Shown piece by piece: positions 6,507-60,699 of a DNA stretch of 64,000 nt. Below the pieces are notes generated by a model, which was given only the letters and a program-made list of their open reading frames with translations, did no database searches and was not told the origin of the DNA. Position numbers and translations under genes: made by a program. The stretch is taken from positions 260,440-324,439 of the forward strand of contig CAMAVK010000002.1 in assembly GCA_945861715.1 (NCBI GenBank). The letters run 5' to 3'. Within the stretch, counting starts at the first letter, position 1. Each line of letters starts with the position of its first letter. Origin of the DNA: Candidatus Woesearchaeota archaeon. GTDB lineage: Archaea > Nanobdellota > Nanobdellia > Woesearchaeales > GW2011-AR9.

Positions 6507-6635
6507 GCGGACGTGCCGGAGTGGTCAAACGGGATGGGCTTAGGTTAAGGGTATTGAGTACCTTTGCAGTGATGCAATCATTAGAAGATACCCATTGGCT
6601 TAGTGCCTACGCAGGTTCAAATCCTGTCGTCCGCA
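6507..6635 (+). tRNA. tRNA-Leu (anticodon UAG) with one intron
   Basis: Acceptor stem GCGGACG/CGTCCGC is followed by discriminator A. The D-stem is CCG/CGG. The anticodon stem is ATGGG/CCCAT, with anticodon TAG at 6541-6543. A 15-nt long variable arm contains CTTAGTG, as expected for leucine tRNA. The T-arm is GCAGG-TTCAAAT-CCTGT. A 45-nt intron (about 6545-6589) sits at the canonical 37/38 site and contains two small hairpins. The T-loop is uninterrupted, unlike three other tRNAs in this window. Confidence 0.92.
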
Positions 6636-38457: not shown

Positions 38458-39450
38458 TCATCTAATATTGTCTAGAATTGAGTGACTGTCTTGTGTGGTG
38501 AGAAGGGTTGTTATGATTTTCGCATCTTTGTGGCTTAGAAATTTAGTTGTGAGAATTCTTTTTTCTTCATTTGTGATTCTAGCTAGTTGGTCGATTTTAA
38601 TTAGTCCGTAGGGATAGCCTGGGAATGTTGCATCATTACTTACAACTGACAGTTTGCAGATGTGTTCTATTGCTCCTTCTGCTCTGAATATATGGTTGCT
38701 TTTTTCGTGCAATTTTGTGAAATGCAGTGTTGGTGTTATGGAGTATGTCCAGGGTTGTGTTGGTCCATGCTTTTTAAGGAATACGTTGATGGATTCGTTT
38801 GTGGTGGTTAAGAGGGTAGATGATTTGGCGATGGAGCATGTGGTTGCTGAGAGTCTTTTAATATATTCTAATTCAAATGGGTAGGAGGGTGTTAAGGTTC
38901 CATCGAGCACGAATATATTTGATTGTTCTGTATAGGTTGATTGAAGATCAATGGTTAGTTGGAGTTCTGCGAGTCGTCTTGCGAGATCTATTATTTTTGT
39001 TGGAGGTGCTTGTGATATTCCTTGTTTAATTGATTCGTCAGTGGTTTTTAGTTGAAGGTGAGAAACGTTTAGTGGTGGGCTTGACTTAGATAGGGTGTTT
39101 TTGTGTTCAAAAATGTGGTTTTCAAAGAGAAATTCATTTTGGATATATTTTGGAAGAGTTAAAAGAAAAAACTCTCGAACTTGAAATGTTTGTGTGGATG
39201 TTGGTGTGGATTGTGTATATGCTGCGATGCGGATGAAACTTAATGAAAATGTTGCGCCGCTTGCGAGTATGGCAGAACCTCCATCGATGTAGGTTATTGT
39301 GTTTGCATTGGACTCGGTTGTATTTTGAATAAGAGAAAATTTATGTGAGTCAAATAGATAGAAGGTGTTATTTATTTGAAGTTGTACGGGTTTTTTTGAG
39401 TTTTCAAGTTGTTCTTGGTTGTTTAGAATGTGATGAATTTTGCTGAACAT
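38458..39450 (-). CDS. NurA-domain protein
   Basis: This protein of about 330 aa has two NurA-like acidic motifs: TYIDGGSAIL (near residue 60) and IFVLDGTLTPSY (about 190), each with Asp-Gly in a beta strand. Downstream are conserved segments such as FLKKHGP and HEKSNHIFRAEGA. NurA is a 5'-3' nuclease acting with HerA in archaeal recombination. HerA is not nearby, and in DPANN these proteins are often stand-alone. I start it at MFSKIHHIL (39450), because the longer frame from 39609 runs through the tRNA-Thr gene on the same strand. Confidence 0.72.
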   Translation of the reverse strand: MFSKIHHILNNQEQLENSKKPVQLQINNTFYLFDSHKFSLIQNTTESNANTITYIDGGSAILASGATFSLSFIRIAAYTQSTPTSTQTFQVREFFLLTLPKYIQNEFLFENHIFEHKNTLSKSSPPLNVSHLQLKTTDESIKQGISQAPPTKIIDLARRLAELQLTIDLQSTYTEQSNIFVLDGTLTPSYPFELEYIKRLSATTCSIAKSSTLLTTTNESINVFLKKHGPTQPWTYSITPTLHFTKLHEKSNHIFRAEGAIEHICKLSVVSNDATFPGYPYGLIKIDQLARITNEEKRILTTKFLSHKDAKIITTLLTTQDSHSILDNIR

Positions 39451-39501
39451 GGGGTTTTGGATATTTTGAGGTTTTGTGGTAAGTTGTAAAAAAGAAAAAT
39501 A

Positions 39502-39633
39502 AGCCCCTGACGAGACATTCGCACTGTCGTTCGATTTAATTCGGGCGACAATATTTGAACTCGTGACCTTGTCCTGTTTGTTGCACTTGTTTTTGCATAC
39601 CAAGGACACGCTCTACCACTAAGCCACAGGGGC
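39502..39633 (-). tRNA. tRNA-Thr (anticodon GGU) with two introns
   Basis: Acceptor GCCCCTG/CAGGGGC with discriminator T fits archaeal tRNA-Thr. The D-arm is GCTT/GAGC. The anticodon stem is TGTCC/GGACA with loop TTGGTA-A and anticodon GGT at 39599-39601. A 22-nt intron (39576-39597) lies at 37/38. The T-stem is ACGAG/CTCGT. Its loop TTCAAA|T is interrupted by a 38-nt intron (39516-39553) at 59/60, closely related to those of tRNA-Leu(UAA) and tRNA-Lys. A TATA box (about 39656-39666) lies upstream. Confidence 0.88.
39516..39553 (-). other. T-loop intron of tRNA-Thr (59/60)
   Basis: This 38-nt insert begins TATTGTCGCCCGA and ends with GAATG before T60. TGTCG/CGACA forms the intron helix. GAA can pair with TTC of the T-loop, leaving 3-nt bulges (AAT and TGT), consistent with cleavage by the archaeal splicing endonuclease after the second base of each. 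Confidence 0.75.
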
Positions 39634-39745
39634 ATAAGATGGTTTGGTTCTGTTGGTATTTAAAAAGTTTTGTATGTGGTATGCTTCTGATTTATTGTTT
39701 ATTTGGTTTGGGAGTTTTTTTAAAGAGGTTTTTCTTTTTGATGGT

Positions 39746-40273
39746 ATGGATGATTTGTGGTTGAATTGGATGAAAGATGCTCTTTTAAGTGAAGGAGTAA
39801 TTGTTGAAAAGGATAGTCTTCAGATTAAGTTAGATTCCTCATCGTTTTTTAGGATTGATGAGAAATTGTCATATTCTGCGGCAGCGGTGTATTTGGGCAA
39901 GTCAGTGAGTGCAACTCGAGGTTATGTTCATCGATATGGACTTCATTCTAAAGGTGGTGTTAGTGCAGCTCATGTTCTTAAACTAACACGATTACCAAAA
40001 GTTCAGTCTACTATTGCCTCGTTTGATTTGAGTGAGATAGTGACTCTTTTTGGTGTTCCACGGGAGCATCAGAAGGATTTATGGCAAAATGGTTTGATGA
40101 GATATGATACTTGTTGGTATAGCGCAGTTGATGTTGCGAGGCATCGTGGTTCTCAGTTGAAGAATTATTTTGAGGTGTTTGATGCAACCTTAGATTTTAT
40201 GGTTCGTGATCATAGTAGATGTTCCATTTCAATTGAAGATCTTGATGCCTTGGCTCGTATTTTAGGTACTTGA
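39746..40273 (+). CDS. Protein with two HTH-like modules, function unknown
   Basis: I do not recognise a named family. From MDDLWLNWMKD (39746) the product is about 175 aa. It contains two similar modules of about 65 residues: SYSAAAVYLGKSVSATRGYV followed by HRYGLHSKGG, and LSEIVTLFGVPREHQKDLW followed by WYSAVDVARHR. Each looks like a winged/excisionase-type helix-turn-helix. The open frame extends back to 39644, but that part overlaps the divergent tRNA-Thr promoter and is Phe/Trp-rich without homology, so it is probably not translated. A DNA-binding role is inferred. Confidence 0.5.
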   Translation: MDDLWLNWMKDALLSEGVIVEKDSLQIKLDSSSFFRIDEKLSYSAAAVYLGKSVSATRGYVHRYGLHSKGGVSAAHVLKLTRLPKVQSTIASFDLSEIVTLFGVPREHQKDLWQNGLMRYDTCWYSAVDVARHRGSQLKNYFEVFDATLDFMVRDHSRCSISIEDLDALARILGT

Positions 40274-40326
40274 GCCTTTTTGGTTTTTTATATATAATTG
40301 TGATAGAAAAAGTGCCGGGGAGGAGA

Positions 40327-40365
40327 CATTCTCATTGTCGTTCGACAAGTTGTCGGGCGATAATA
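40327..40365 (-). other. T-loop intron of tRNA-Leu(UAA) (59/60)
   Basis: This 39-nt insert begins TATTATCGCCCGA and ends TGAGAATG. It differs from the tRNA-Thr insert mainly in the apical loop. The same ATCG/CGA(C)A helix and the same exon-intron bulges can form. Confidence 0.75.
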
Positions 40366-40397
40366 TTTGAACTCCTGAACCCACTAAGAGACAGGAT

Positions 40398-40426
40398 TGC
40401 TTATACCCACATAATATGGGCGGTCT
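40398..40426 (-). other. Anticodon-loop intron of tRNA-Leu(UAA) (37/38)
   Basis: This 29-nt intron lies between G37 and A38. It contains the hairpin CCCATATTATGTGGG. Confidence 0.75.
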
Positions 40427-40441
40427 CTTAAGTCCTGCACA

Positions 40442-40477
40442 TATAGTCTAGAATCTCACGTTTTGGTTGAGTTTCTA
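40442..40477 (-). other. D-arm intron of tRNA-Leu(UAA)
   Basis: This 36-nt insert separates the D-loop (ending CAAA) from the 3' D-stem TGT. AGAA-ACTCA pairs with TGAGATTCT with one mismatch, giving an internal hairpin. The exact boundary (near 22/23) could shift by a few bases. Confidence 0.6.
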
Positions 40478-40534
40478 TTTGACCAGGCTTTGTTACCCCG
40501 GCAAGTATGCAGTGAGTAGGATTTCCTGCTCGTA

Positions 40535-40544
40535 GTATATAAAA
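40535..40544 (-). promoter_or_regulatory. TATA box of tRNA-Leu(UAA)
   Basis: TTTTATATAC on the minus strand lies 33-42 bp before the mature 5' end, giving a 5' leader of roughly 15 nt. Confidence 0.65.
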
Positions 40545-40646: not shown

Positions 40647-41600
40647 TTAGGGTAGAGTATACACCACTCGACCAAGGTTGTGTATCGAGCTTACCATGCG
40701 ATTTAGTCGTGTGGTAACTTTTGCGAGTCCATCAACTTTCATGATGTCTTTTTCAAGTTTTTCAATATCTAGATCTATACTTTGTTTTTCGTCGCTTAAT
40801 TTTAACGCAAGTGTGGTATCTTGGTTATAATATGCTTTAAGGGTTTCGAGGTATAGGTTGTTTAATTTGTTAAATATGTTTTCGACTTCTTTTCTTTTTT
40901 CCGCTGTGAGTTTTAAGGCTCTTGCAAATCTTGCGGTACGTCTCACTTCGTCAGCTATTGCTTCGATGTGGAATCCAGCAAATTTCATACGTAATAGGTC
41001 AATTGCTTTTAGGTGAAAGTTTTTAATTGCTTTAGATGGATTATCGAGATTGTATAACACTGAACGGTAAAGAAGAAAGTATAATCTATTTACGTCTCTA
41101 TCTCGATCATTCATGTTTTCATAATTGTCCTCTTGAAATATAGTCGTTAAGTCTTTTAACATGATTCGTGTTACGACATCCATTTTCCGGATTAATTCAG
41201 TAATTGATACTTTATCCATGTTAAGAAAATCTTTTGCAACCATGGAATCTGAGGTTTGTTCCATAATTTCAAGTGCAATCATGTTTTGAATGATATTTTG
41301 GAGATCGCGAATTTTGGTTTTAAGTTCGTTTCCTTTAAGTACGATTTTTCGATGGTTTAGAATGTAGGCGGAAACAACTTCTCTTGCTATGTATACGACA
41401 CTTTTTTTGTCAACAATGATGGTTATTTCTTTTTCTATTTCATCTTTGTCCATTTCTTTTTTCGATAGAACAAGATTGGTATCAGCTTCGGTAACGCATA
41501 CTACATCACCTTTTACAAGTTTGTTTTGAACGACCCATGTTTTTGGAATGGAAATAACAAAACTGTTTTTTCCAAATGAGATTAATTTTCTGTATTCCAT
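40647..41600 (-). CDS. PhoU-domain regulator with N-terminal AbrB/SpoVT domain
   Basis: This 317-aa protein opens with a swapped-hairpin AbrB/SpoVT DNA-binding domain (MEYRKLISFGKNSFVISIPK, about residues 1-48), followed by two PhoU-like helical repeats (about 85-310) including GFHIEAIADEVRRTARFARAL. Archaeal proteins with this fusion are annotated as phosphate-uptake regulators. No pst transporter gene is in the window, so the target is unknown. GGAGG lies a few nt before the ATG, and a TATA box (TTTATATAAG, near 41657-41668) lies upstream. Confidence 0.85.
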   Translation of the reverse strand: MEYRKLISFGKNSFVISIPKTWVVQNKLVKGDVVCVTEADTNLVLSKKEMDKDEIEKEITIIVDKKSVVYIAREVVSAYILNHRKIVLKGNELKTKIRDLQNIIQNMIALEIMEQTSDSMVAKDFLNMDKVSITELIRKMDVVTRIMLKDLTTIFQEDNYENMNDRDRDVNRLYFLLYRSVLYNLDNPSKAIKNFHLKAIDLLRMKFAGFHIEAIADEVRRTARFARALKLTAEKRKEVENIFNKLNNLYLETLKAYYNQDTTLALKLSDEKQSIDLDIEKLEKDIMKVDGLAKVTTRLNRMVSSIHNLGRVVYTLP

Positions 41601-58129: not shown

Positions 58130-58409
58130 ATTAGGGGCACACCCACATTTCGACAACATCAGACCAAAGTAGTTTGATCCTTATAGACTCTCAGCAATGC
58201 GACCCTCCAAACATGGTGATTGACGGTTAAGGCTGCTTCATTCCTGATCTGACCTGGTTCCCGACAAGACCATCCTAGAGGACACTGCGTCGACGAGTTG
58301 AATAAGGACTACTCCGACCTGATACGGCCTGGATATGGGTTTCGGCTCTGTGTGAAGTCCGTTCACAGTAACAACGCAGGACTAGCGCGCCAGCCTAGCT
58401 CTCCCTCAG
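58130..58409 (-). ncRNA. ffs: Signal recognition particle 7S RNA
   Basis: Read on the minus strand, the 280-nt region contains the helix 8 signature GGTCAGATCAGGAATGAAGC followed by AGCC, matching the Srp54-binding GGUCAG...GGAA...AAGCAGCC motif. It also has a closing helix with AGGG near the 5' end and CCCCT at the 3' end, plus a long internal helix 5. Length fits archaeal 7S RNA (about 300 nt). A TATA box lies 25-30 bp upstream of the inferred 5' end. It targets nascent exported proteins to the membrane with Srp54 and Srp19. End points are approximate to 10-15 nt. Confidence 0.9.
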
Positions 58410-60418: not shown

Positions 60419-60534
60419 GCCTTGGTGGTGTAGCTCGGCCTAGCATGAAGCCCTGTCGATATGCAGAGCGACTTCGGAAGTTCTTTTTGCAAAACAAAAA
60501 GGCTTCGACCCGGGTTCGAATCCCGGCCAAGGCG
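60419..60534 (+). tRNA. tRNA-Asp (anticodon GUC) with one intron
   Basis: Acceptor GCCTTGG/CCAAGGC has discriminator G, as expected for tRNA-Asp. The D-stem is GTG/CAT. The anticodon stem is AAGCC/GGCTT with anticodon GTC at 60455-60457. A 41-nt intron (60459-60499) lies at 37/38. The T-arm CCGGG-TTCGAAT-CCCGG is intact. Confidence 0.9.
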
Positions 60535-60544
60535 TTTTCCATTT

Positions 60545-60699
60545 GGGCCGGTAGCTTAGCCTGGTATAGCGCCTGACTTTTAGTCGAAGTGCAGTTGCAG
60601 ATAATGTAATTGCAGTTAGCAGACATCAGGCGGTCGCGAGTTCGAATTTGTCGTATAAGTGTTCGTCATTTATTGACAAGGAATGTCTCGTCCGGCCCG
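60545..60699 (+). tRNA. tRNA-Lys (anticodon UUU) with two introns
   Basis: Acceptor GGGCCGG/CCGGCCC has discriminator G. The D-arm is GCT/AGC. The anticodon stem is CCTGA/TCAGG with loop CTTTTA-A and anticodon TTT at 60579-60581. A 42-nt intron (60583-60624) lies at 37/38. The T-stem is GCGAG/CTCGT. The loop TTCGAA|T is interrupted by a 39-nt intron (60647-60685) related to those of tRNA-Thr and tRNA-Leu(UAA). It lies 10 bp after tRNA-Asp. Confidence 0.88.
60647..60685 (+). other. T-loop intron of tRNA-Lys (59/60)
   Basis: This 39-nt insert begins TTTGTCG and ends GACAAGGAATG before T60. TTGTC pairs with GACAA. GAA can pair with TTC of the T-loop, giving the same two 3-nt bulges (AAT, TGT) as in the other two T-loop introns, though the apical loop is different. 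Confidence 0.75.

Follow-up and report, generated by a model that had tools for sequence, protein, structure and literature searches.

The minus strand of the window, the 64,000-nt stretch of Woesearchaeal DNA analysed here, carries a tRNA-Leu(UAA) gene divided into four exon pieces by three introns (Table 1). Read from 40502 to 40313, the gene totals 190 nt, and joining the exons after removal of 36 nt in the D-loop, 29 nt at position 37/38, and 39 nt in the T-loop yields GCCGGGGTAACAAAGCCTGGTCAAATGTGCAGGACTTAAGATCCTGTCTCTTAGTGGGTTCAGGAGTTCAAATCTCCTCCCCGGCA, an 86-nt RNA that ARAGORN assigns to tRNA-Leu(taa). Both the ARAGORN call and the alignment with orthologues show a class II cloverleaf with a UAA anticodon after intron removal, in which the variable arm and the loops of the anticodon and T arms are intact. 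The variable region is 15 nt long and contains CTTAGTG, as does that of tRNA-Leu(UAG). An earlier note on this DNA had given the coordinates, the 190-nt length, and the 36-, 29-, and 39-nt inserts correctly, and the strand, which it lacked, is minus. Its identification of a tRNA-Leu(UAA) with three introns is borne out by the ARAGORN call on the spliced 86-mer and by the orthologues, and its comparison of the variable arm with tRNA-Leu(UAG), in length and in CTTAGTG, holds equally.

The earlier note also anticipated that standard tRNA finders may miss such a gene, and both programs did so. ARAGORN reports zero tRNA genes across the window, while the Rfam tRNA model finds two other window tRNAs at its gathering score and nothing tRNA-like at the tRNA-Leu(UAA) locus at E<=10. 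Since minimum-energy folding of the raw precursor did not recover the cloverleaf, orthologues were used instead. The plus strand of the locus folds well (z -4.9); this reading was rejected, and we take the fold to mirror that of the tRNA and its intron hairpins. No Rfam family matches the plus strand of the locus, and a search of a plasmid collection gave zero matches.

Table 1. Features of the tRNA-Leu(UAA) locus and of other RNA genes in the window.
Feature	Position	Strand	Basis or remark
tRNA-Leu(UAG), 45-nt intron at 37/38	6507..6635	plus	Rfam tRNA model
tRNA-Thr(GGU), two introns (37/38, T-loop 59/60)	39502..39633	minus	decoded from searches
T-run CTTTTTC, terminator-like (putative)	40306..40312	minus	immediately 3' of the discriminator base; read by eye
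tRNA-Leu(UAA) gene, three introns	40313..40502	minus	exons sum to 86 nt; CCA not encoded
T-loop intron, 39 nt	40326..40364	minus	from intron removal and orthologues
Anticodon-loop intron, 29 nt	40398..40426	minus	canonical 37/38
D-loop intron, 36 nt	40442..40477	minus	from intron removal and orthologues
TATA-box-like TTTTATATA (putative)	40536..40544	minus	upstream of tRNA-Leu(UAA), same strand; read by eye
PhoU-like protein gene, 317 aa (putative)	40647..41600	minus	neighbour used to locate the locus in relatives; name is our reading
Archaeal SRP RNA	58134..58405	minus	Rfam RF01857, 100.5 bits
tRNA-Asp(GUC), 41-nt intron at 37/38	60419..60534	plus	Rfam tRNA model
tRNA-Lys(UUU), two introns (37/38, T-loop 59/60)	60545..60699	plus	directly after tRNA-Asp(GUC); below the Rfam gathering threshold

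The exon-intron boundaries were examined for the bulge-helix-bulge (BHB) element, with the cut set between nucleotides 2 and 3 of the bulge, following solved complexes (PMC12397907). For the D-loop intron the best BHB placement is 21/22 (ATAGAAACTC...GACTAT; 40443-40478), one base 5' of the interval in Table 1, and the registers 22/23 and 23/24 give an identical exon product. Its central helix, GGTC/GACT, pairs at 4/4 bp and its inner helix has 5 bp, while the outer helix is absent (HBh'-like). The corresponding central helix in the relative L107 is GGCC/GGCT, a two-sided change. At 37/38 the central helix CTTA/TAAG is also paired at 4/4 bp and the anticodon stem serves as the outer helix, while the inner helix opens with a G.A mismatch (hBH-like). 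The T-loop intron has its BHB placement at 59/60 (40327-40365), again one base 5' of the tabulated interval, with a UUC/GAA central helix of 3/4 bp and the T stem as the outer helix. Thus, one part deviates from the strict hBHBh' form at each of the three sites, which makes them relaxed BHBs. Across the 28 introns of the genome, the central helix is paired at 92 of 112 positions, compared with 46.7 +/- 5.0 for shuffled introns (0/2000 as high); in this count the 37/38 and 59/60 placements of the other genes were fixed by tRNA numbering and not fitted to pairing, while the three tRNA-Leu(UAA) introns were placed at the best BHB of two or three equivalent registers, which introduces a small bias. 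The tRNA-Leu(UAA) introns are therefore of the archaeal BHB type in its relaxed form, with boundaries that carry the central helix far above chance.

Interrupted genes prevail among the tRNA genes decoded in this genome (1.3 Mb, 8 contigs, 98% complete). Introns, 28 in total, interrupt 22 of the 24 decoded tRNA genes, in an inventory that was built from searches, is incomplete (L018, L021, L022, L024, and L027 were left undecoded by the script), and tends to miss the genes with the most interruptions. At least six tRNA genes have a T-loop intron at 59/60: Leu(UAA), Thr(GGU), Leu(GAG), Lys(UUU), Ile(UAU), and Gln(CUG). Clear sequence similarity was seen only for Leu(UAA), Thr(GGU), and Leu(GAG), whose T-loop introns are alike at both ends; that of tRNA-Thr(GGU), for example, resembles that of tRNA-Leu(UAA) (ATTRTCGCCCGA...TCGAACGACARTG). 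This likeness suggests that the T-loop intron may have been copied between tRNAs within the genome. According to Fujishima 2010 as cited in PMC4090602, similar introns have spread in Thermoproteales at the same position among different tRNAs, and the likeness here would be of the same kind, at T-loop position 59/60 in a Woesearchaeon.

Several further observations concern the neighbouring and related genes. The tRNA-Thr(GGU) gene overlaps the start of an ORF at 38458-39609, so the GTG start of this ORF is probably placed too far upstream. The tRNA-Thr and tRNA-Leu genes flank a 209-aa ORF (39644-40273, plus), which is missing from L069 and L070, where they lie near each other. The tRNA-Leu(GAG) gene, at about 1470-1610 of L121 on the minus strand of that locus, has introns at 37/38 and 59/60 and was found only via its T-loop intron, being absent from the Rfam tRNA matches at E<=10. 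The tRNA of L018 (perhaps Arg) appears by eye to have D-loop and anticodon-loop introns.

Starting from the PhoU-like neighbour, we located the tRNA in related genomes, mostly named as Woesearchaeota, in which the orthologous tRNA-Leu(UAA) often lies near this gene. The 5' exon pattern matches 36 of the 49 genomes of the family and occurs exactly once in the window's own genome. A second, conventional tRNA-Leu(UAA), which the earlier note had held would count against the interrupted gene if the latter were also silent, was looked for with this pattern and among the decodable Rfam tRNA candidates, and none was found. In 33 parsed family members, tallied by hand with L113 taken as two introns by eye, the gene has no intron in 2, one in 13, two in 15, and three in 3 (this genome, L107, and L111). 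Both intronless orthologues, L074 and L091, are exactly 86 nt long. Sampling the order beyond this family added 27 Leu genes, with the anticodon UAA in most but not all: none in 7, one in 16, two in 1, and three in 3 (L221, L223, and L224). The introns of tRNA-Leu(UAA) range from 14 to 92 nt across relatives. In L107 and L223, which belong to two different families of the order, they lie at 21/22, 37/38, and 51/52 (T stem). The comparison of sister genomes at the same locus, which the earlier note had proposed, thus found this tRNA there with a smaller number of introns or with none at all. Judging from these genes, the introns vary between lineages, from 0 to 3 in the same tRNA, at a few positions that recur.

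Covariation across the introns is seen in the spliced exons. In 14 spliced orthologues, a set that omits L113 (two introns merged) and L099 and L100 (T-stem introns) because automatic splicing was off, 99.3% of cloverleaf pairs are standard. Two-sided changes occur at 9 of 20 cloverleaf pairs, compared with 3.9 in shuffles, none of 500 of which reached this count, and the covariation of the spliced cloverleaf was 0.295, against 0.135 +/- 0.016 when shuffled (0/500). G-C/A-U changes in the T stem covary across the T intron. Pair 10-25, whose two sides flank the D intron, is A-U in this gene and G-C in the others; such a two-sided change across the intron makes little sense if the spliced product serves no purpose.

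The genome contains one EndA gene and one RtcB gene. EndA has 217 aa, with PF02778 and PF01974 (N and C domains) in one protein, and its closest solved chains are 1a79_A (alpha-4) and 3iey_A of Nanoarchaeum equitans. It is a single gene (the alpha-4 type has about 180 aa) with both domains and, as read from the alignment, the Tyr/His/Lys triad. We therefore class it as a plain one-gene alpha-4 EndA, a putative homotetramer. No second EndA-like gene was found in the genome with a Woesearchaeal profile at E<=10, although a very divergent beta subunit could have escaped this search. A single EndA match was likewise present in 57 of the 58 genomes that have a match; the one other genome, G017, shows two fragments side by side. 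Alignments with PDB chains, on which the conclusion about loops is based, place a nine-residue gap at the Crenarchaea-specific loop (CSL) of the Aeropyrum pernix catalytic subunit 3p1z_B, and gaps at the ARMAN-specific loop (ASL) of ARMAN-2 4fz2. The other Woesearchaeal EndAs aligned lack the CSL as well. The AlphaFold model, built from a single sequence, had a pLDDT of 44 and was left unused. Residues 1-45 of the EndA of L028 form a variable lysine-rich N-terminal extension, which most EndAs of the family share and the M. jannaschii chain 1a79 lacks.

The earlier note had suggested looking for a splicing endonuclease of broad specificity (EndA type), whereas the only EndA found is of the one-gene type without CSL or ASL. 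Broad specificity has been tied to the CSL, the ARMAN loop, or the (alpha-beta)2 form, the one-gene EndA of M. jannaschii is listed as narrow, and a trend has been reported in which EndA loops and intron diversity occur together (PMC6379350). Broad specificity is also described for the N. equitans EndA (PMC6379350), whose chain 3iey_A, aligned with the EndA described here, is loop-free at the place of the CSL; however, that enzyme has a second subunit, and none was found here. Either there is an unrecognised subunit, or the one-gene EndA is broader than its type, or imperfect BHBs suffice. We tentatively propose, as a serious possibility short of an expectation, that a one-gene EndA without CSL or ASL processes relaxed-BHB introns at the D-arm, the anticodon stem, and the T-arm, in which case the rule that a loop or a beta subunit is needed would fail in Woesearchaeota. 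In that case broad specificity would have a different origin, perhaps, to speculate, in the lysine-rich N-terminal extension.

Could the introns be removed without EndA, by self-splicing or by an activity that has gone unrecognised? The lack of CSL and ASL in the only EndA found would fit this, yet the intron boundaries show the EndA recognition element far above chance, and the EndA and RtcB genes are both in the genome. Group I or II ribozymes need more than 14-92 nt, so the introns found across relatives are too short for either. Archaeal rRNA genes, those of Woesearchaeota included, can contain group I introns (PMC6125680). Taken together, removal independent of EndA is quite improbable. 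We give still less credence to a pseudogene in decay or a copy riddled with insertions and without function. The gene has ten differences from the family reference sequence, among the highest counts, and its BHB elements are imperfect; however, these differences keep the stems paired through two-sided changes, and the anticodon loop, the T-loop, and the variable arm are undamaged. Moreover, the searches turned up no further tRNA-Leu(UAA) gene to read the common UUA codons.

Errors of assembly or binning might be suspected, since most of the named relatives are metagenome-assembled genomes and the assembly analysed here comprises 8 contigs. However, the gene lies inside a 332-kb contig, and independent genomes of this and other families have introns at the same positions, some of them also three. 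We consider such errors a negligible explanation.

TTA makes up 29% of Leu codons in 28 ORFs of the window. With UUA codons this frequent and no further tRNA-Leu(UAA) found to read them, the gene is very likely functional. We are highly confident that this tRNA-Leu(UAA) gene works and is very likely essential, and that its precursor, with three BHB-type introns at 21/22, 37/38, and 59/60, would be spliced by EndA and RtcB. On folding of the precursor, a BHB-like element would arise at the two boundaries of every intron, EndA would cut it at six sites, and RtcB would ligate the four exons into the 86-nt tRNA. We infer that the gene is transcribed, that the cuts and the ligation take place, and in what order the introns leave. 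Against this reading stands the fact that all three junctions fall short of a perfect strict BHB, together with the listing of the M. jannaschii one-gene EndA as narrow (PMC6379350).

Introns in the D-arm and T-arm and triple introns have been described in tRNAs of other archaea (PMC4390854, PMC4090602, PMC12397907). Three-intron genes are known in Thermoproteales, namely tRNA-Glu(UUC) of Pyrobaculum calidifontis and tRNA-Pro(UGG) of P. islandicum (PMC4390854, PMC4090602), the latter with introns at 25/26, 37/38, and 56/57; noncanonical positions including 59/60 are already known (PMC4090602). The gene described here resembles those of Pyrobaculum in having three short introns, one canonical and two noncanonical, at positions of the same kind and with BHB-like boundaries. 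It differs in being another tRNA in another phylum (Woesearchaeota, DPANN). Pyrobaculum has a heterotetrameric EndA, and the CSL is described as conserved in crenarchaeal enzymes, whereas a single EndA gene without CSL is present here. ARMAN-2 (Micrarchaeum) is likewise an ultrasmall archaeon, and its EndA processes tRNA introns of diverse kinds (PMC12397907, PMC6379350), as is here predicted from the genes; however, its epsilon-2 EndA has 390 aa, three units, and the ARMAN-specific loop, while the present enzyme has 217 aa, one unit, and no such loop. The tRNA-Ile(UAU) of the red alga Cyanidioschyzon merolae (PMC9602550) is an unrelated gene of a eukaryote with another endonuclease complex. 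We found no report of tRNA introns in Woesearchaeota in the literature searched, which is weak evidence because subscription journals were mostly outside its coverage.

The mismatch between relaxed introns and a loop-free single EndA is the part worth testing, and the gene offers a direct test case for the proposed link of EndA loops to relaxed introns. The orthologues of this one tRNA, often at a shared locus, form a natural series of 0, 1, 2, and 3 introns in which to study intron gain and loss. Since such genes escape standard finders, the tRNA complement of Woesearchaeota may be underestimated. Our analysis extends three-intron tRNA genes, known from hot-spring archaea, to a widespread uncultured DPANN group.
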